NCBI GenBank assembly: GCA_030017955.1
Contig: JASEGR010000027.1
Coordinates: 1-35,050, forward strand
DNA: 35,050 nt
From: Candidatus Eisenbacteria bacterium
GTDB lineage: Bacteria > Eisenbacteria > RBG-16-71-46 > JASEGR01
Direction: 5' to 3'
A model generated the notes under the pieces. That model did no database searches. It was not told the origin of the DNA and saw only the letters and a list, made by a program, of their open reading frames with translations. The translations under genes and the position numbers were made by a program. Below, piece by piece: positions 2,344 through 34,845 of this stretch (the stretch's first letter is position 1; every line of letters starts with the position of its first letter).

Positions 2344-3180
2344 TCACACGAAACCGACGTCGCCAGAAAGTATGCGCTCCTGGATGCCGGAGTCAAGCCT
2401 GACAATGAGGGCTCCGCTTTCGTCCACGTCGTGCGCGATGCCCTCGATAACTCTTCCTCTGCACCTGACAGAGATTCTCTTCCCCCACATGTCCGTCATC
2501 CCTTTCCATTCCTCAAGGAGCGGATCGAGTCCCGACCTGCAAAAAGTAAGGTAGAGGGATTCAAGCTCGCAAAGAAAAGAGAGGAGAACATCGTAACGGT
2601 CAACCCTTCGCCCAAGTTCCAGACCCAAAGAGGTGGCAGATGCCCCCACCGCATCAGGTAGCGAAGCATTATCCTGATTCACGTTGATGCCGACTCCGAG
2701 CACTATGAACTCTATCTTGTCGGGCTCCGCCGCCATCTCTGTAAGAATCCCGGCGACCTTTTTTCCTGAAACCAGAACGTCGTTTGGCCACTTCACAAAC
2801 GCAGAGAGTCCGGTGACCCTTCGTATTGCCTTTACCACAGCGACCGACGCTACGAAACTCAAGCCGGGCGCGAGAGCAGCAGGAACGTCCGGCTTCAAAA
2901 GAATGGACATCCAGATGCCGACTCCCCGTGGCGAATACCACTTCCTCCGGAGTCTCCCCCTGCCCGTCGTCTGTTCCTCAGCAATGACAAGCAGGCCTTC
3001 TTCTTCTCCTTCCTCAGCAAGCGCAAGGAGGATATCGTTTGTTGAACCCACACGGTCATAGACCCTCACATTGCGTCCGAGCTTCACAGTCTCGAGGCGA
3101 GAGAGGATTCGCTCCTTTGACCAGAGGGCATGCTCGGATGCACCCGGTTTGCTTTCTCCGGCGCCTTTCATACGCCCCAT
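2344..3180 (-). CDS. birA: Biotin--[acetyl-CoA-carboxylase] ligase
   Basis: This enzyme activates biotin as biotinyl-AMP and transfers it to the lysine of biotin carboxyl carrier proteins. The catalytic signature GRGRLRRKW, the substrate region GSTND, the stretch VKWPNDVLV and the KKVAGILTE / GVGINVN motifs are all present in order. The C-terminal small domain (residues about 235-278) is also present. The N-terminal region before GSTND is only about 45 residues and shows no clear helix-turn-helix repressor domain of the E. coli BirA type. It therefore looks monofunctional, although a short helical segment (SKERILSRLE) might be a remnant. The ATG at 3180 directly follows the nadC stop, so translation is probably coupled. 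Identification is firm. Confidence 0.94.
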   Translation of the reverse strand: MGRMKGAGESKPGASEHALWSKERILSRLETVKLGRNVRVYDRVGSTNDILLALAEEGEEEGLLVIAEEQTTGRGRLRRKWYSPRGVGIWMSILLKPDVPAALAPGLSFVASVAVVKAIRRVTGLSAFVKWPNDVLVSGKKVAGILTEMAAEPDKIEFIVLGVGINVNQDNASLPDAVGASATSLGLELGRRVDRYDVLLSFLCELESLYLTFCRSGLDPLLEEWKGMTDMWGKRISVRCRGRVIEGIAHDVDESGALIVRLDSGIQERILSGDVGFV

Positions 3181-4049
3181 TCAATCTTCCCAGGTTTCAT
3201 CGATCTCGAGGGAGAGGTCAATGGCTTTGGGAGAATGAGTAAGCGCTCCGACAGAAATGAGATCGACTCCGGCGAGCGCAATTGTCCTCACATTCTTGAG
3301 CGTTACGCCTCCGGAGGCCTCAATATCAGGCACCCTTCCTTTCTTACCCTCCCTGATCATTCCTACCGCCTTCCTCATCTGACCGGCATCCATGTTATCG
3401 AGCATGATTCTGTCAACTCCCTGATCAAGGATCTCTTTCAATTCATCAAGGGTCCTAACCTCAACCTCAACCGGAAGCTCCTGCTTCTCTTCTTTCATCC
3501 GCTCGTTTATCTTCTGAACGGCTTCCTTGATTCTCTTCATTGCCCTGACATGATTACCCTTCACAAGGTACATGTCGAAAAGTCCGAACCTGTGGTTCAC
3601 TCCTCCCCCAACCTTGACAGCATACTTCTCAAGTATTCTGATTCCGGGCGTTGTCTTCCTTGTATCGGCTATCTTCGCGCCGGTTCCCTGAATCTTGTCA
3701 ACGAATGCTCGTGTCAGCGTGGCAACACCGGACATCCGCTGGAGGAAATTCAATGCGACCCTTTCGGCCGTGACAATCGATCTCGCTTTCCCGCTTATCC
3801 CGCATACCCTTTTCCCACTTTCAAGTTTCTCCCCGTCCCTCATGAGGGGGTTGAATTCCAGGTTTTTGTCGACGGTTGAGAATACGAGCCGTGCCACGTC
3901 TAATCCCGCAAGCACGCCCTCCCCCCGGGCGACAATATATGCAGTCGCCTTGAGGCCTTCAGGGATTATCGCCTCTGTCGTCACATCTCCCTCACCGACA
4001 TCTTCGGTTAAAGCCAATCTCACAAGGGGCTCGGCAATTGTTTCGATTT

Positions 4050-26294: not shown

Positions 26295-28094
26295 TCAAGT
26301 CAGAGGAACTATTTCCTTGATGGCCGCTTGTCCCTCGGCCCCAGGCTGCTTGAGTGGAATTGCGAAGGCAAACAGGCTTCCTTTCCCAATCTCACTTTCG
26401 ACCCATATCCGGCCATGATGCTGCTCGATTATGCCTTTCGAGATCACAAGACCCAGCCCGGTCCCTCCGACCTTTCTCGTCATTGAGCCGTCGAGCTGTT
26501 GAAACTTCTTGAAGAGTTTCTTTATGTCTTGGACCGCGATTCCTGACCCCTGGTCTCTGACCCCGACTTCAATCTCGTTCTCTCTGGCTGTAAAGGAGAG
26601 GGACACCTTGCTCTGTGCCTCAGAGAACTTGATGGCGTTGCCGAGAAGGTTTGTCACCACCTGTTCGATCCTGGCCCCGTCTGCTTCAACAATCACCTCT
26701 TGTCCAGGCAGATCGGCCAGAATGCCCAAATTCTTCTGTTTCGCGAGGCCCTCTATGTTCCTGATGCATTGTCTGAGCACCTCAACGACATCAATCGGCT
26801 CGAAATCCATAGACAATTTCGAAGAGTCCATCTTGGAGAAATCAAGTATGTCCGATACAAGCTTAATAAGCCGTGTGGCATTGGCGTCGCAGATACCGAG
26901 CAGTTCCTTTTGAGTTTCGGATGGCTTGAAAAGCCTCTCGTCCTGCAGAAGATCGATTGAACCTTTCATGGATGTGAGCGGAGTCCGCAGCTCATGCGAT
27001 ACAACTGCCACAAACTCGGACTTCAATCTGTCAAGCTCCTTCGTTTTCTCATAGAGCCTTGCGTTCGAAAGCGCTATCGCCGCCTGCCTCCCGAACAAAG
27101 ACAACATTTCCATATCCTCTTGCGAGAACGGCTTCTCCTCTGCCCTTGCAAGAAGAAGCCCGCCTATTCTTTCTCCCAGAGTCGAAAGTGGAACAACAAG
27201 GCACGCGCCTGGTCCTTTCGTAGGAGCGTACTCTCCGTTTACGCCCAATATCTTCGGCCTGGTGTGAACAGTGGGAGTTTCCAGCGAGAGAGCCGTTCCC
27301 GGGAAGCCATCAGAGGGTGAGCACTTGACCTCTGAAATCCCGAGATTCTCAACCCCGCTTCCTGCTACAGTGGAATATTGACTCGAATTCTCGTCAAAAA
27401 GAAAAAGGAAGACCGTGTCGCACAGAATCAGTGCTCTTGCTTTCTCGGTAATGGAACTACAAGTGTTTCCAAGACTAAGGCTTGATGTAATTTCTTTGCC
27501 GAACTCGTAGAGGGTCCTCAGTCTTCGCGTTGCCAACTCTATCTTTTCGATCAGCGTTTCCTTGTGCTGTTTGAGTTCCTCATTGGCCACTTTCAGTCTC
27601 TGGAGCAGCAGCTGGTTTTCGGCAGTCAGCCTGCAGCTTGACAGACCCCTGTCTATTGTCTGGGCTACTTCCCAGAGATCGAAGGGCTTTGTCACGTAGT
27701 CATACGCACCGTGTCTGAGAGCATCTATTGCAGTTCTTGTGGAGGCATAACCAGTGATGACAATCACGCAGGTCGTTTCGTTTTTCGCCTTTACAGCTTT
27801 GACTACTTCGAGGCCATCGACTCCGGGAAGGTTAATGTCCGTGAGAACAAGGTCGTACTCCGTCTCATTTATCTTCCTTAATGCTTCCTCGCCGGTGTTG
27901 GCCGAATCTGCCTCGTGGCCCTTCTCCCTGAAGAGTTCCAGGAAGATCTCCCTAACATTTTCCTCATCATCAACCACAAGGACTCTTGTGGGACTCTGCG
28001 AAACCTCGTCCAGCAGCGCCCGGGAGTCAAGTTCTTCTGGTGTGTCAAGTTCAGCTTTGACTGTGACGGCTGCCGTTTCAGTGGATGAGTTCAA
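26295..28094 (-). CDS. Hybrid sensor kinase with N-terminal receiver (REC-GAF-HisKA-HATPase)
   Basis: A 599-residue soluble signalling protein. An N-terminal receiver (about 36-150, phospho-acceptor D86 in LVLTDINLPGVDG, TKPF lysine near 136) is joined by a coiled coil (about 155-195) to a GAF sensor domain (about 195-345). HisKA and ATPase domains follow, with H367 in VVSHELRTPLTSMKGS, N-box GNAIKFSE, G1 RDQGSGI and G2 GGTGLGLVIS. No membrane segment is visible. The TTG start overlaps the sigma factor stop by 4 nt (TTGA), so synthesis is coupled to the FliA-like sigma. A receiver ahead of the kinase suggests it is itself a target of another kinase. Its output partner could be the lone receiver encoded upstream. 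Confidence 0.93.
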   Translation of the reverse strand: MNSSTETAAVTVKAELDTPEELDSRALLDEVSQSPTRVLVVDDEENVREIFLELFREKGHEADSANTGEEALRKINETEYDLVLTDINLPGVDGLEVVKAVKAKNETTCVIVITGYASTRTAIDALRHGAYDYVTKPFDLWEVAQTIDRGLSSCRLTAENQLLLQRLKVANEELKQHKETLIEKIELATRRLRTLYEFGKEITSSLSLGNTCSSITEKARALILCDTVFLFLFDENSSQYSTVAGSGVENLGISEVKCSPSDGFPGTALSLETPTVHTRPKILGVNGEYAPTKGPGACLVVPLSTLGERIGGLLLARAEEKPFSQEDMEMLSLFGRQAAIALSNARLYEKTKELDRLKSEFVAVVSHELRTPLTSMKGSIDLLQDERLFKPSETQKELLGICDANATRLIKLVSDILDFSKMDSSKLSMDFEPIDVVEVLRQCIRNIEGLAKQKNLGILADLPGQEVIVEADGARIEQVVTNLLGNAIKFSEAQSKVSLSFTARENEIEVGVRDQGSGIAVQDIKKLFKKFQQLDGSMTRKVGGTGLGLVISKGIIEQHHGRIWVESEIGKGSLFAFAIPLKQPGAEGQAAIKEIVPLT

Positions 28095-28879
28095 CTTTGA
28101 GCGACCTCGCCAAGCTTTCTTCCCAACCTCGTCTTCAATTTCTTCATCGCTTCTCCATGAATCTGCGAAACTCTCGATTCTGATATCTGAAGCGCCTCTC
28201 CGATCTCTTTCAGAGTCAGATCCTCGTAGTAGTATAGTGCCACCACAAGCCGCTCCTGCTCCGGAAGTTTCTCAATTGACTCTTCAAGCAGCTTCACCGT
28301 CTCCTCTTTTTCAAGCAGCGCTTCCGGGTCGGGCGAGTTCTCGTCCTCGATAGTCTCCTCAAGCCCTCCTTGTTCGAGTTCCAGATCCTTCGAGACAGTG
28401 CGTTCGATCGGGATAAGGAGAGAACCTCTTATTTCCTCCATCAACCTGCCGTGCTCACCGGGAGTCATTCCCAGCGCATTGGCCAGCTCTGCCTGCGTCG
28501 CGGCCCGTCCGAGCTTCTGATCAAGTGTCCTCGCCGCGGCTTCGGCGAACCGGGCCTTTCTTCTGGTAGTTCTTGGCACCCAGTCCATCGCTCTGAGCTC
28601 GTCGAGAACGGCTCCCTTCACTCGCCAGACAGCATAGGTCTCGAACTTGATTCCCTTGCCGGGATCGAACTTCTCCAGCGCATCCATAAGCCCGATCACG
28701 GCGGCGTCCAGAAGGTCGTCAACATCCACGCATCTAGGGAGACCTGATGCAATCTTCTCGACGACATACTTCACGAGTCCTGCGTACTTTCTTAGGGCAA
28801 CCTCTTTCTTCTTCTGGCTGCCCTTGATGCATGCCGGCACGTCAGGGTTTAAAGAGGACAACAGTTGAACAGACGACAT
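28091..28879 (-). CDS. FliA/WhiG-family RNA polymerase sigma factor (sigma-28 type)
   Basis: A 262-residue alternative sigma factor. Region 2 is unmistakable: LRKYAGLVKYVVEKIASGLP, DVDDLLDAAVIGLMDALEKFDPGKG and KFETYAVWRVKGAVLDELRAMDWVPR. Region 3 (about 105-150) and region 4 (about 205-255, LPEQERLVVALYYYEDLTLKEIGEALQISESRVSQIHGEAM) follow. This group recognises TAAAG...GCCGATAA-type promoters and is usually held by FlgM. A FlgM-like gene behind just such a promoter lies at 33139-33324. An acidic linker (ETIEDENSPDPEALLEKEE) before region 4 is prominent. No flagellar structural gene is present, so its regulon here is unknown. The ATG at 28879 follows the lone region-4 gene by 15 nt. Confidence 0.94.
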   Translation of the reverse strand: MSSVQLLSSLNPDVPACIKGSQKKKEVALRKYAGLVKYVVEKIASGLPRCVDVDDLLDAAVIGLMDALEKFDPGKGIKFETYAVWRVKGAVLDELRAMDWVPRTTRRKARFAEAAARTLDQKLGRAATQAELANALGMTPGEHGRLMEEIRGSLLIPIERTVSKDLELEQGGLEETIEDENSPDPEALLEKEETVKLLEESIEKLPEQERLVVALYYYEDLTLKEIGEALQISESRVSQIHGEAMKKLKTRLGRKLGEVAQS

Positions 28880-28894
28880 GAATTCCCCCTTTCA

Positions 28895-29206
28895 CTAGGC
28901 TCTCTTGAGGCGGCACTTGGGCCACTCGAAGGACTGGGCAAGTCTGGACTTTATGAACGAAAGCCCGTTGGAGTGGAGGCCGACAACCCTGGCAAGCGGA
29001 ATATCAAGTACTGCCGCAATGTCCCGGAAGCTCATCCGTTCAAGGTAACGAAGTGAAAGAACCATCCTTTCATCTTCGGAAAGTACGAGAAGGAGTGATT
29101 CCACGAGGCGAGAATTCGACGTGACACGCTCCCCGGATTCGAGATCCTTCTCCCGAGTCTTTCTCGGACGTTCTTCCACTGTGCTTCCTGATTTCATCCG
29201 TTTCAC
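28895..29206 (-). CDS. Small stand-alone sigma-70 region-4-like helix-turn-helix protein
   Basis: A 103-residue protein. After a charged N-terminal tail (about 1-35) it has one domain that reads like sigma region 4: LSEDERMVLSLRYLERMSFRDIAAVLDIPLARVVGLHSNGLSFIKSRL. Regions 2 and 3 are missing, so it cannot act alone as a normal sigma factor. Residues usually conserved in the recognition helix (S-x-x-R-V) are altered to LARVV, which may change binding. Its GTG start overlaps the stop of the response regulator (GTGA), and the FliA-like sigma gene follows 15 nt downstream. It could be a DNA-binding regulator, a partner of another sigma factor, or a modulator of the neighbouring sigma. I do not recognise a named family. 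Confidence 0.75.
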   Translation of the reverse strand: MKRMKSGSTVEERPRKTREKDLESGERVTSNSRLVESLLLVLSEDERMVLSLRYLERMSFRDIAAVLDIPLARVVGLHSNGLSFIKSRLAQSFEWPKCRLKRA

Positions 29207-29589
29207 CTCCCTTTGGAGAGAGTGCTGCTTTCGAGGAGCGCAGCTATCTTCTGCTTGAGTTCACGAACGTTGAACGGCTTGACAAACCAGGCATCTGCTC
29301 CAGCTTTGGCAGCTTTTTCTTTGAGTTCTTGCGTTCCGTAAGCAGTAATCACGATTGCGGGCGGAGAAGGCGGGTCTTTCCTGAGAGCTCTTACGAGGTC
29401 GACCCCGTTCATTCCCGGAAGTCGAACATCGGTGACGAGCAGGTCACAGTCCCTTTTTGAGAGATGCTTGAGCGCATCCTCGGAACTCCCAACGACGGTA
29501 GTTTCGTATCCATCTTCTTTGAGAGTCTGGGCGAGTGCCCACCCTGTCGCTTTCTCGTCTTCAACGATGAGAATTGATTCTCCCGGCAT
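29203..29589 (-). CDS. Stand-alone response regulator receiver protein
   Basis: A 128-residue single-domain receiver (CheY-like fold). The acidic pocket is ED at 10-11, the phospho-acceptor is D54 (LLVTDVRLPGMNG), the threonine is in IVITAYG and the lysine in WFVKPF. There is no output domain, so it must act through a partner protein, perhaps one of the two kinases or the sigma pair. It is the first gene behind the sigma-54 promoter at 29620-29634 and overlaps the next gene by 4 nt. The ATG at 29589 follows an AAGGGGG site. Single receivers commonly work in phosphorelays (family knowledge). Confidence 0.92.
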   Translation of the reverse strand: MPGESILIVEDEKATGWALAQTLKEDGYETTVVGSSEDALKHLSKRDCDLLVTDVRLPGMNGVDLVRALRKDPPSPPAIVITAYGTQELKEKAAKAGADAWFVKPFNVRELKQKIAALLESSTLSKGR

Positions 29590-29619: not shown

Positions 29620-29634
29620 GCAATGGACGGGCCA
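29620..29634 (-). promoter_or_regulatory. Sigma-54 (RpoN) promoter driving the receiver-sigma-kinase operon
   Basis: On the minus strand the sequence is TGGCCC-GTCCA-TTGC, against the consensus TGGCAC-N5-TTGC. Only one base differs, and the GG and GC doublets are exactly 10 nt apart. Transcription would begin near 29608, about 20 nt before the receiver ATG. An NtrC-type activator gene lies immediately upstream, which supports a real promoter. Confidence 0.75.
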
Positions 29635-29767
29635 AACCTGTCTCGGGAGAATGAAAGCCTGGAATTTTCAGGAAGGAAAAGAATGGGGGCGGGAATTGCC
29701 TTTTATTTCAGTGAGTTAGAGATTCAAGTTTCCGGGCTGAGACGGGCGCGGTTGGGAGGTAAGAACG

Positions 29768-29809: not shown

Positions 29810-29838
29810 AAAAATCTTACCGGGTCTGGTAAGTTTTT
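29810..29838 (-). terminator. Rho-independent terminator of the NtrC-like gene
   Basis: CTTACC (29833-29828 on the minus strand) pairs with GGTAAG (29821-29816) around a 6-nt loop. The stem is flanked by AAAAA on one side and a TTTTT run on the other, so it can extend. It overlaps the stop codon of the NtrC-like gene and separates it from the sigma-54-driven operon. Confidence 0.7.
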
Positions 29839-31208
29839 GACCGTTCTTCATGAGGAAGGAGACCGCATTCCTTCAGCTTCGCTCTCAGGGTCTGTCTGGA
29901 GATCCCAAGAATCGCCGCGGCTTTCGTTTTGTTGCCTCCAGACTTTTTCAGCGCATCCTGTATGGCAAGAAGCTCAATCTCCTTGAGCGAATTGGGACCG
30001 CCCTGGGTGGGTGTAGAATCAGGACCTCTTTCGCCAGGTCCGCGAGACGGATTTCTAACCTCCGGCGGGAGATGCTCGGGCAGGATGCGGTCGTCATCTT
30101 CAAGCAGTATTATTCTTTCGACAAGATTCCTGAGCTCTCTCACGTTGCCGGGCCATGGGTAGCTTATGAACAACTGCATTGCCTCCCCTGAGACTTCCAC
30201 CCTCTTTCTCAATTCCCTGCTGAAGATTGCAGCATAGTGCTCAATGAGGACTGGAATGTCCTCGACTCTCTCCCTGAGTGGCGGGACATAGATGGGGATC
30301 ACTATCAGTCTGTAGTACAAGTCTTCCCTGAACTTTCCCTGCTCAGCAAGGCTCTTCAGGTCTGTGTTGGTGGCAGCGATCACCCTGGCATTTATCCTCA
30401 CTTCCTCTGTTCCGCCCACCTTGCGAAAACTCTTGTTCTCAAGGACACGAAGGAGTTTGGATTGGAGGCCCAGACTCATTTCTCCAATCTCGTCAAGGAA
30501 AAGTGTACCCGGGCTTGCAAGTTCAGCAAGCCCCCTTTTCGACTTCTTGGCATCAGTGAAGGCCCCCTTTTCGTAGCCAAAAAGCTCGCTCTCAAGAAGG
30601 TTCTCAGGGACTGCGCTGCAGTTCACCTCAACAAACATGCCGCGACCTGCCATGTTGTGAATCTGCCTTGCTATCAGTTCTTTCCCGACACCTGTCTCGC
30701 CTTCTATGAGCACGGTGGCCGCGCTTGGCGCTATTCTCCTCAGCTTCTCCAGAATCTCATTCATCTGCCGGCTCTTTCCGATGATTTCAAACTTCTCGTT
30801 CTCCTGCTGCTTCCGGCGCTTAATCTCATCGGAGAGTTGGACAGGTTTGATGGCATCTTCAATGTTCCTCAGCATGTGATCCATTTCGAAAGGCTTCTTC
30901 ACATACCGGAAACAGTCGTATTTCCCGGCTTCAAAGGCTGAATCAAGTGTGGTGAACGCCGTCATCATAATCACCTGGATGTCTTTCTCGGGGAACCTGC
31001 TCCTTAATTCTTTCAAGACATTTATCCCGTCTTCAGTCTTCAACCTCACGTCGAGAAGGACTACGTCAACGTCCTCTTCGTCAATGACCGTCATGCACTG
31101 CTTTCCATTCTCAGCAATGAATACGTTGTATCCCTTGTCCTTGAGAAACTCGCCCAGAGGCCAGCGGAATCCTTCTTCGTCATCGACTATGAGAACGGTA
31201 TTCCTCAA
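29817..31208 (-). CDS. NtrC-family sigma-54-dependent response regulator
   Basis: A 463-residue activator with three domains. The receiver (1-120) has D53 in VVLLDVRL. The AAA+ domain (about 140-375) has Walker A GETGVGKE (170-177) and Walker B LFLDE. A C-terminal Fis-type helix-turn-helix (about 415-455, GGNKTKAAAILGISRQTLRAKL) completes it. The sigma-54 contact loop reads GAFTDA (215-220) instead of GAFTGA, a variant known in many functional members. It would activate sigma-54 polymerase once phosphorylated, most likely by the kinase encoded 125 nt upstream. A matching sigma-54 promoter lies downstream of its own stop. Two palindromic repeats fill the gap between it and the kinase gene. Confidence 0.95.
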   Translation of the reverse strand: MRNTVLIVDDEEGFRWPLGEFLKDKGYNVFIAENGKQCMTVIDEEDVDVVLLDVRLKTEDGINVLKELRSRFPEKDIQVIMMTAFTTLDSAFEAGKYDCFRYVKKPFEMDHMLRNIEDAIKPVQLSDEIKRRKQQENEKFEIIGKSRQMNEILEKLRRIAPSAATVLIEGETGVGKELIARQIHNMAGRGMFVEVNCSAVPENLLESELFGYEKGAFTDAKKSKRGLAELASPGTLFLDEIGEMSLGLQSKLLRVLENKSFRKVGGTEEVRINARVIAATNTDLKSLAEQGKFREDLYYRLIVIPIYVPPLRERVEDIPVLIEHYAAIFSRELRKRVEVSGEAMQLFISYPWPGNVRELRNLVERIILLEDDDRILPEHLPPEVRNPSRGPGERGPDSTPTQGGPNSLKEIELLAIQDALKKSGGNKTKAAAILGISRQTLRAKLKECGLLPHEERSKTYQTR

Positions 31209-31332: not shown

Positions 31333-33000
31333 TCAACTTCGCGCCTTTCTTTTTTCAAGAGGAAGCTCCACAGTCGCAACCGTCCCTCTTCCCTCTTCAC
31401 TCGAAACGGCTATCGTACCTCCGTGCTCCCTGATAATGGATTGGGAAATTGAAAGTCCCAGGCCGGTTCCCTCCGGCCTGGTCGTGAAGAATGGATCGAA
31501 GAGCCTGTCGACAATCTCTTTCGGGATTCCACATCCGGTGTCTATGATTTCAAGTCTCAGAAACTCTTTCGGCTGAAGTCTTATGCTCTCCAAATCCCCT
31601 TTTCTCCTCCGGTGGGGCCCTGCCTTCTTCAGACTGAGAAGCCTGAACGTGAGTGTGCCCCCCTGCGGCATGGAATGTAGCGCATTTGTCACAAGGTTGT
31701 GGATGACCTGAACCATCTGATCCTGGTCAATGTAAACCATCGGAATCGGCTCTTCATACTGCTTGACCACGCTTATGCCGTTGCTCCGGATAAGATCTCC
31801 GGACAATGCAAGCACCCTTTCAATCGATTCTCTCAAGTCTGTGAAGGAAAGACTCGGAGCAACCGGCTTCGCGAAAAGAAGGACTCTTTCAACAATCTTG
31901 TCCAGTCTCTCAACTTCTTCAAGAATGATGTCGATGAACTTTGTTCTCTTGTCATCTTCCTCAAACTTGCTCTTCAAGACCTGCGCACTGGTGGCAATGC
32001 CGGCAAGCGGATTTCTTATCTCATGTGCGACCCCGGCCGAGAGCTCGCCCAGGGAGGCAAGCTTCTCGGTTCGTCTGAGCTGATCTTCAATCCTCCTGGA
32101 TTCACTCAGATCATTGAAAATTCCCACTGCGCCCGTTATTCCGCTCTTTTCATCCCTGATGCAGGAGACTCTCATGCTTACCGGGATTTCGGCCCCGGAG
32201 CTGTTCTTCAGATACACCTCTTCCTCCGCGGCTCCGCCCTTCAGAACTCCTTTGAGCACTGAGCCTCCGGAACCGGCACCGAAAACCTCCTCCACTTCTT
32301 TGCCGACAATGTCTCTCGTTTCGTAACCAAGCAACTCCTGGGCGGACGTGTTGAAGTACATGACTTTTCCATCAAGCCCTATCGCTATGAGACCGCTGTT
32401 CATGTTTCTGAGAATGCTTTCAGTAAACTCAGTCAGTCTCACCTGATCTCTCATGAGTTTTACGTTCGCCAGTCCCTCGGAGAGTATGGCCTTCATGGCC
32501 TTAAATAGTTCGATGTGTACGTTGAAATCCTCCTCTGACCGGAATTCTTTTGCTATAAGGAGTATTCCAAAAAGACCAGAGTAGTGATCGAGCGACAAAC
32601 AGTAGAGAGAACTTCCACAGTCACATGCCCCTGAAAAGAAAGCCGGGAATCTTCCCTTCAACGTGTCCATCGAGACAAGATCGAAACTCTCGAAGACACC
32701 TGACCTGCAGATTTCGTCAAAAGCACGCAGTGCTTCTTCGACGACCTGGCGGTCCAAACCCGATGAGGCCTTTTCAACGAGTTTCCCGTCTTCCATGAGA
32801 AGGAGCGAGAAACCGGAAGCGTCGAAGTCTTTGGTTAGTACATCGCCGATTGATGCCAGGAATCCGGGGAAATCGAATGCGGATGCGGAAGCTTTCCCGA
32901 TCTTGTACAGAATCGAAAGTTCCTTGAGTTTCTCGCTAGTACCTTCCACAGAACGCGCCCCCTCAAAGCTGGTTCTAGCACTTTGGCTGGAAGCTGTCAA
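31333..33000 (-). CDS. PAS-domain sensor histidine kinase (NtrB-like)
   Basis: A 555-residue cytosolic kinase. An N-terminal GAF-like domain (about 25-180, ILYKIGKASASAFDFPGFL onward) is followed by a PAS domain (about 188-305, ILRNMNSGLIAIGLDGKVMYFN). HisKA has H326 in GELSAGVAHEIRNPLAGI. The ATPase domain carries NLVTNALHSMPQGG, DTGCGIP and GTGLGLSIS. The NPLAGI type of H-box is usual in NtrB partners of sigma-54 activators. Two cysteines close together in the GAF-like part (CDCGS) could sense redox or metals, but this is only a guess. The listed TTG start at 33000 is weak; a later start near codon 18 is possible. It lies upstream of the NtrC-like gene on the same strand, so the two form a two-component pair. 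Confidence 0.93.
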   Translation of the reverse strand: MTASSQSARTSFEGARSVEGTSEKLKELSILYKIGKASASAFDFPGFLASIGDVLTKDFDASGFSLLLMEDGKLVEKASSGLDRQVVEEALRAFDEICRSGVFESFDLVSMDTLKGRFPAFFSGACDCGSSLYCLSLDHYSGLFGILLIAKEFRSEEDFNVHIELFKAMKAILSEGLANVKLMRDQVRLTEFTESILRNMNSGLIAIGLDGKVMYFNTSAQELLGYETRDIVGKEVEEVFGAGSGGSVLKGVLKGGAAEEEVYLKNSSGAEIPVSMRVSCIRDEKSGITGAVGIFNDLSESRRIEDQLRRTEKLASLGELSAGVAHEIRNPLAGIATSAQVLKSKFEEDDKRTKFIDIILEEVERLDKIVERVLLFAKPVAPSLSFTDLRESIERVLALSGDLIRSNGISVVKQYEEPIPMVYIDQDQMVQVIHNLVTNALHSMPQGGTLTFRLLSLKKAGPHRRRKGDLESIRLQPKEFLRLEIIDTGCGIPKEIVDRLFDPFFTTRPEGTGLGLSISQSIIREHGGTIAVSSEEGRGTVATVELPLEKRKARS

Positions 33001-33123: not shown

Positions 33124-33146
33124 AGCAGTGCTTGCTGCCTACTGCT
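33124..33146 (-). terminator. Hairpin at the end of the FlgM-like gene
   Basis: AGCAGT (33146-33141 on the minus strand) pairs with ACTGCT (33129-33124), followed by a short T run. It overlaps the FlgM stop codon. The stem is only 6 bp with an 11-nt loop, so it may be a weak terminator. Confidence 0.4.
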
Positions 33147-33324
33147 CTTTCTCAAGAAACTCAGCAAGCAGCACTGCAAGAGATCTCTTCACTTCGGGAA
33201 GGTCGTAGTAGCCGGACTTCACCCTATCTCTCACTCTCTCGATCTTGGCTTGAGCCGTTTCTCCCCGTTCGAAAGAAGGAGCCTTGCCACAGCTTTTCTG
33301 TCGCGCATTCCTCTCGACTGTCAT
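33139..33324 (-). CDS. FlgM-like anti-sigma-28 factor
   Basis: A 61-residue protein. The C-terminal half AKIERVRDRVKSGYYDLPEVKR plus the helix SLAVLLAEFLEKE (residues 26-59) follows the FlgM pattern: a helix, then SGxYxxxPEV, then a helix that binds sigma-28. The N-terminal part is basic and probably disordered, as in FlgM. It is somewhat shorter than most FlgM proteins (about 90-100 residues). Two further facts support the call: a near-consensus sigma-28 promoter directly upstream (33336-33362), and a FliA-type sigma factor 4.3 kb away in the same cluster. In known systems FlgM holds sigma-28 inactive until secreted through the flagellar export apparatus. No such genes are present here, so release may differ. 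Confidence 0.75.
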   Translation of the reverse strand: MTVERNARQKSCGKAPSFERGETAQAKIERVRDRVKSGYYDLPEVKRSLAVLLAEFLEKEQ

Positions 33325-33335
33325 CTCACTCTGAA

Positions 33336-33362
33336 AAATCGGCCTAATATCCCAAAGCTTTA
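33336..33362 (-). promoter_or_regulatory. Sigma-28 (FliA-type) promoter upstream of the FlgM-like gene
   Basis: On the minus strand TAAAGCTT (33362-33355), an 11-nt spacer and GCCGATTT (33343-33336). The enterobacterial consensus is TAAAGTTT-N11-GCCGATAA, so 13 of 16 defined positions agree and the spacing is exact. The -10 ends only 11 nt before the ATG at 33324, so the leader would be very short. Confidence 0.75.
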
Positions 33363-34395: not shown

Positions 34396-34845
34396 TTATG
34401 ATCTGAAAGGGAGAACTTCTTCTCTCCCGACAGACTCTGGGGAATCACTTCTTTCCAGGAGCCTTCTTACCCACACACCTTTCTTTGTGGCAACCGTCAG
34501 GTTGACGTCCTTGCCCTTGCTGAAATGGGAGACAAGGTTCTCCTTGAGCTGCTCGGCTTCACTCGAAAGGAAATACCGGCAAATTCTCTTGAACATGCCG
34601 CGCTCTTCTTCAAACACAAGTAGGATGACTTCATCAACCTCGTCAACTTTCTCTTCCGAAGAAATCACGCCTTCCGCTTCATCATTATCCATCCAGAGTG
34701 AAGAAACCGGGCTCTCAATGTCGAAGCCGTGTTTTTCAGTCATGAGGTACTGCCACAGCTCAAAGACTTCACTGGGCACATACCTCACACTTCGAGAGGA
34801 GCCTTTCTTCCTGACTTCACACCTGACTAACTTCTCGCTCGCCAC
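34396..34845 (-). CDS. Acidic protein of unknown function
   Basis: A 149-residue soluble protein I do not recognise. It starts with a basic segment (VRCEVRKKGSSRSVRYVPSEVFELW). The middle is acidic (SSLWMDNDEAEGVISSEEKVDEVDEV), followed by helices rich in Glu and Lys (FEEERGMFKRICRYFLSSEAEQLKENL), and it ends in a mixed tail. There is no signal peptide or membrane segment. The GTG start at 34845 has only a distant GGGAGG site. A promoter TTGACA-N17-TAGACT lies at 34888-34916. Its place directly upstream of uppP suggests cotranscription, but no functional link is evident. Confidence 0.7.
   Translation of the reverse strand: MASEKLVRCEVRKKGSSRSVRYVPSEVFELWQYLMTEKHGFDIESPVSSLWMDNDEAEGVISSEEKVDEVDEVILLVFEEERGMFKRICRYFLSSEAEQLKENLVSHFSKGKDVNLTVATKKGVWVRRLLERSDSPESVGREEVLPFRS

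Follow-up and report, generated by a model that had tools for sequence, protein, structure and literature searches.

Genes and promoters of the module

The window, by which we mean the whole stretch of 35,050 nucleotides that was analysed, carries on its minus strand a gene for a stand-alone sigma-70 region-4 protein (R4). The order of the genes on that strand is FlgM-like, PAS histidine kinase, NtrC-type activator, REC, R4, FliA and RecHK, and this set is referred to as the module. The features are:

33337..33362, minus strand: sigma-28-type promoter TAAAG-N14-GCCGATT, 12 nt before the FlgM-like start
33139..33324, minus strand: FlgM-like anti-sigma-28 protein, 61 aa (profile-profile match of the module homologues)
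31333..33000, minus strand: PAS histidine kinase of an NtrC-type pair (Pfam)
29817..31208, minus strand: NtrC-type sigma-54 activator with receiver, AAA+ and Fis-type HTH (Pfam)
29620..29635, minus strand: sigma-54 promoter-like site TTGGCCCGTCCATTGC, 30 nt before REC
29203..29589, minus strand: REC, single-domain response regulator receiver (PF00072, E=2.8e-28)
28895..29206, minus strand: R4, stand-alone sigma-70 region-4 protein (Pfam, NCBIfam, AlphaFold2, Foldseek)
28091..28879, minus strand: FliA/WhiG-type (sigma-28) sigma factor, complete with regions 2, 3 and 4 (TIGR02479, 252 bits, cut-off 189.6)
26295..28094, minus strand: RecHK, receiver-GAF-histidine kinase, overlapping the FliA stop (Pfam)

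The R4 reading frame comprises 103 aa if counted from the GTG at 29206. This GTG falls within the Shine-Dalgarno-like run AGGGAGGTG, and an ATG is found 6 nt further on (GGGAGGTGAAACGGATG). Because the GTG sits in the ribosome site, the ATG at 29197 is the more likely start, giving a protein of 100 aa. The translational coupling to the receiver described in an earlier note on this DNA was thus retained in a modified form, the tight coupling of R4 to REC being likely to involve overlap of the ribosome site and not of start and stop codons. The complete FliA gene starts 15 nt downstream of R4, at 28879, as the same note had it, and is the sole copy in the genome at E≤1e-20. The acceptor residues of REC are intact (Asp in TDVRLPG, Thr in ITAYG and Lys in VKPF); RecHK, which lies near FliA in most relatives, is a candidate kinase or phosphatase for this receiver.

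The FlgM-like sequence of the window did not by itself match PF04316 in Pfam, and three homologues scored 0.0022–0.12, below the cut-off. A profile of 15 module homologues aligned by hhalign with 8 FlgM-type proteins, several of which are encoded beside flagellin genes of relatives, gave an E-value of 9.6e-10 and a probability of 96.5%; FlgM was not among the matches of the profile in the PDB. The C-terminal motif (AKIERVRDRVKSGYYDLPEVKR) is retained, and the gene was present in 16 of 16 R4 loci whose contig extends upstream of the histidine kinase.

The site TTGGCCCGTCCATTGC was the sole match in the window at up to one mismatch, and at least one match was obtained in 23 of 100 shuffles. In nearly all loci a sigma-54 site (TGGCAYGC-type) sits between NtrC and the gene that follows it, with scores reached by at most 2.5% of shuffles except at L100, L104 and L080, and RpoN is encoded in the genome of the window. 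The sigma-28-type promoter of the FlgM-like gene is one of 8 relaxed matches in 3.1 Mb (3 for the control), which is too few to assign targets beyond flgM; the strict flagellar promoter pattern gave no match. Comparable sites precede the FlgM-like gene at L087, L092, L093, L094 and L106, those in the remaining loci not being convincing. Two further features were noted in the window. REP-like palindromes, CTCTCCCC-N3-GGGGAGAG, occur at 2300, 31298, 33389, 33430 and 33489; three lie immediately upstream of the FlgM-like gene, and one variant has CTCTCCC arms. With 9 strand matches against 0.01 expected, they are far more frequent than by chance. At 34396-34845 a 149-aa protein without family assignment is encoded; several relatives (L084, L104, L106) have homologues of it upstream of the module.

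Fold, distribution and sequence conservation of R4

Sigma70_r4 was the sole domain detected in R4 by Pfam (PF04545, E=1.3e-9; PF08281, E=1.1e-8), with scores above the curated cut-offs (37.8 versus 24.1 bits and 35 versus 25.7 bits, respectively). The best NCBIfam match was to the C-terminal part only of FliA_WhiG (1.5e-10). AlphaFold2 yielded a confident four-helix region-4 fold, with helices at residues 20-41, 44-54, 60-67 and 71-92 (numbered from the GTG), a mean pLDDT of 80 and values above 90 across the domain. Foldseek retrieved almost exclusively sigma factors or their region 4 in isolation; no match fell below E=0.001, which is what a domain of this small size would be expected to give. 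Matches in the PDB included PhyR sigma-like domains and, weakly, the DNA-binding domains of FixJ and DosR. When family models were run against the R4s of 21 genomes (see below), two sigma region-4 models matched 17 and 13 of the 21, and ECF and FliA models also gave matches. The PhyR models NF006623 and PF22233 matched 8 (best 2e-7) and 2 of them, respectively. Assignment to a plain LuxR- or TetR-type family, which the earlier note had named as the alternative to a region-4-only protein, was not obtained: GerE matched 1 of 21 R4s and TetR none in the family profiles.

A direct sequence search returned only full-length sigma factors and no R4 orthologues, and these were located by gene order, from the FliA loci of relatives. 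R4 is carried by 21 genomes of three families: 19 of family f8, one of f10 and that of the window. Since a small region-4 gene fills the equivalent place in 20 other genomes, the R4 reading frame is not a chance one, and its conservation beside the sigma gene, on which the earlier note had let its proposal depend, was borne out. The order NtrC, sigma-54 promoter, REC, R4, FliA is kept in 19 of the 20 genomes of f8, which belongs to the same class as the window but to a different family; there the REC stop and the R4 start share a 4-nt overlap in 16 of 19 cases, and in the remaining three the start lies within 5 nt of this position. REC and R4 are separate genes in all loci read. The f10 locus (L068) has no REC, and R4 comes after the sigma-54 site; in G042, which lacks R4, the next gene comes directly after REC. 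Family f6 has the FlgM-like gene, REC and FliA, with REC overlapping or abutting FliA, and no R4; f5 has neither REC nor R4. R4 is therefore not essential, as judged from f6 and G042. Outside the class, no R4 was detected near 80 FliA loci of named genomes, the single listed match (L178) being poor. The window R4 and those of f8 are probably orthologues; the gene order supports this, sequence alone being no proof.

The f8 loci (L096:8275-8505, L085:8364-8594, L089:5551-5802 and others) also encode a conserved protein of 76-92 aa of unknown family, absent from the window, which is coupled to R4 (in L094 directly to REC) and is followed by an FlhG/MinD-like ATPase before FliA. In L068 the gene after R4 (2547-3542) starts receiver-like and resembles by eye a CheB-type methylesterase; an FlhG-like gene and then FliA come next. 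The REC and R4 proteins of f8 have conserved RRAA ends, which were considered as degrons, an idea that was dropped since the same DNA forms the ribosome site of the next gene, a simpler explanation.

The region-4.1 core is kept across the 21 R4s. In an alignment with region 4 of 42 FliAs, R18, L21, L23, E27, L29 and E33 are retained, and a G35 to A change is invariant. The block ISESRVSQxH, the part of FliA that reads the -35 element, is invariant in the neighbouring FliAs and lost from the R4s. Among FliA-invariant columns, R4 retention was 15% at DNA-contact columns, which we assigned from E. coli sigma-70 residues, versus 44% at the others (permutation p=0.0095). No part varies more, even among R4s, than the recognition helix (mean entropy 2.19 bits versus 1.35 in 4.1), in which Glu is common at the central position. 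R4 thus differs from a functional FliA-type sigma factor both in consisting of region 4 alone and in having lost this block. R4 evolves faster than REC and FliA, yet is constrained between close relatives: dN/dS was 0.28–0.36 in the two closest pairs and 0.5–0.86 for more distant ones. In a domain tree the R4s of the window and f10 were placed near ECF sigmas; a single R4 clade was neither shown nor rejected (p-AU 0.385), and the tree is compatible with an ancestry from either FliA or an ECF sigma.

Sigma-28 factors and flagellar genes in R4 carriers

Neither flagellin nor FlhA was detected in the genome of the window, which is 97% complete, and the FliA-type sigma is therefore not flagellar here. 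Flagellin is encoded by 9 of the R4 carriers and lacking from 12. A second sigma-28, 35–42% identical, was found in the flagellated f8 and f10 carriers and in G004 (of the class of the window), mostly on the same contig as flhA, whereas in f4, f7, f9 and f11 it is the closer FliA that has flhA nearby. The sigma of the module therefore looks like a repurposed flagellar sigma.

Proposed sigma mimicry and alternative functions of R4

Because its promoter-reading residues are lost, R4 is probably a decoy for the inhibitor of the sigma factor and not a working sigma factor. The parts list of the module, the residues for DNA reading that R4 has lost and its matches to PhyR suggest a PhyR-like sigma mimic of split type, with R4 titrating the FlgM-like anti-sigma, a reading to which we assign a probability of about 0.45. 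It draws on gene order, coupling, promoter motifs, FlgM homology, the loss of the residues that read DNA and conservation in three families. The FlgM-like protein would hold FliA until activation of the HK/NtrC pair fires the sigma-54 promoter before REC, whereupon REC, R4 and FliA would be made together. R4, with the protein-binding 4.1 core kept and the -35 element presumably no longer read, would occupy the helices with which the FlgM-like protein binds region 4, and would free FliA; the phosphorylation state of REC may gate the availability of R4 or supply a second input. Transcription of flgM by FliA would close a negative loop. The R4–FlgM binding, the control of R4 by REC and the direction of the effect are what we infer from the module.

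In PhyR the promoter- and core-contacting regions are degenerated and the protein titrates NepR (PMC8103513), and FlgM blocks the RNAP-binding determinants of sigma-2 and sigma-4 (PMC4598750). The module resembles the PhyR/NepR/EcfG system of Alphaproteobacteria in linking a receiver to a sigma-like domain without promoter contacts, R4 showing the corresponding degeneration in its 15% versus 44% retention, with anti-sigma and sigma genes alongside. It differs in that it contains sigma-28 and FlgM instead of ECF and NepR, is preceded by a sigma-54/NtrC promoter and has the receiver and the sigma-like part in separate genes, whereas PhyR is one protein that engages its anti-sigma upon phosphorylation of the receiver, and in that R4 lacks a region-2-like part. 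Four points speak against mimicry: R4 is dispensable, as its lack in f6 and G042 shows; FlgM contacts other sigma domains too, so region 4 alone may bind weakly; the PhyR matches may come from general similarity to ECF region 4; and the net charge of R4 is basic (+1 to +20), which may leave room for DNA binding.

The earlier note had suggested a switchable partner or competitor for the -35 contact of the neighbouring sigma factor. The coupling to a receiver is supported, but a role at the -35 contact is not: the -35-reading residues of FliA are what R4 has lost, and an anti-sigma decoy fits better. Close to that suggestion, minus the -35 contact, is a role in which R4 would compete for the beta-flap of RNA polymerase against FliA or the housekeeping sigma, acting as an inhibitor or modulator under the control of REC. 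The 4.1 core being the best conserved part of R4 agrees with it, as does the co-expression with FliA predicted by the gene order; R4 has, however, no linker or region 2 to stay on the polymerase, the same flap is contested by many sigma factors, and the constant linkage to the FlgM-like gene is left unexplained, making this role unlikely. We consider a split DNA-binding response regulator made up of REC and R4 similarly doubtful; in this reading R4 would bind a DNA site of its own via the diverged recognition helix. The HTH is retained, the protein is basic and coupled to REC, and FixJ and DosR appear among the weak PDB matches, but the variability of the recognition helix, the Glu common at its central position and the single GerE match argue against such a function.

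A decaying remnant of a sigma gene duplication would agree with the rapid evolution of R4 (dN/dS as high as 0.86 in distant pairs) and its lack in f6 and G042. The intactness of R4 in 21 genomes of three families, with coupling kept, core residues invariant and dN/dS low in the two closest pairs, makes decay improbable. R4 shares with SigO/RsoA of Bacillus subtilis, in which SigO is a published split sigma-4 protein, the property of having a sigma-4 part only. The sigma-4 part of that system works with a sigma-2 protein, whereas R4 adjoins a full sigma and has lost the -35 residues; no separate region-2 protein was seen among the annotated module genes. With the neighbouring FliA complete, we regard it as very improbable that R4 is a SigO/RsoA-like half of a two-subunit sigma.

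The classical way of removing FlgM is to secrete it through the flagellum, a route closed to non-flagellated bacteria, and receiver-controlled sigma mimicry is known from PhyR. If sigma mimicry by R4 is true, a FlgM decoy would explain how a sigma-28/FlgM pair is switched without a flagellum, and R4 would represent an independent origin of such mimicry. More tentatively, the module could be an undescribed sigma-28/FlgM partner switch in Eisenbacteria, a little-studied group of bacteria. As a split counterpart of PhyR that arose by convergence, it would use a free region-4 mimic and a separate, co-translated receiver to release a flagellar sigma repurposed for non-flagellar genes. Neither a FlgM decoy nor the sigma factors of Eisenbacteria turned up in the part of the literature that was covered. 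With the flagellar FliA/FlgM circuit the module shares the FliA-type sigma, the FlgM-like anti-sigma, the sigma-28-type promoter before flgM and the upstream sigma-54/NtrC-type activator, as well as, in f8, the FlhG-like ATPase before fliA. Unlike that circuit, it adds REC and R4, occurs in genomes without flagellin or FlhA and accompanies a second sigma-28 in flagellated carriers. A FliA-type sigma about 200 nt after an NtrC-type gene, without REC or R4, was also observed in a Gemmatimonadetes MAG (L145:4594-7280).
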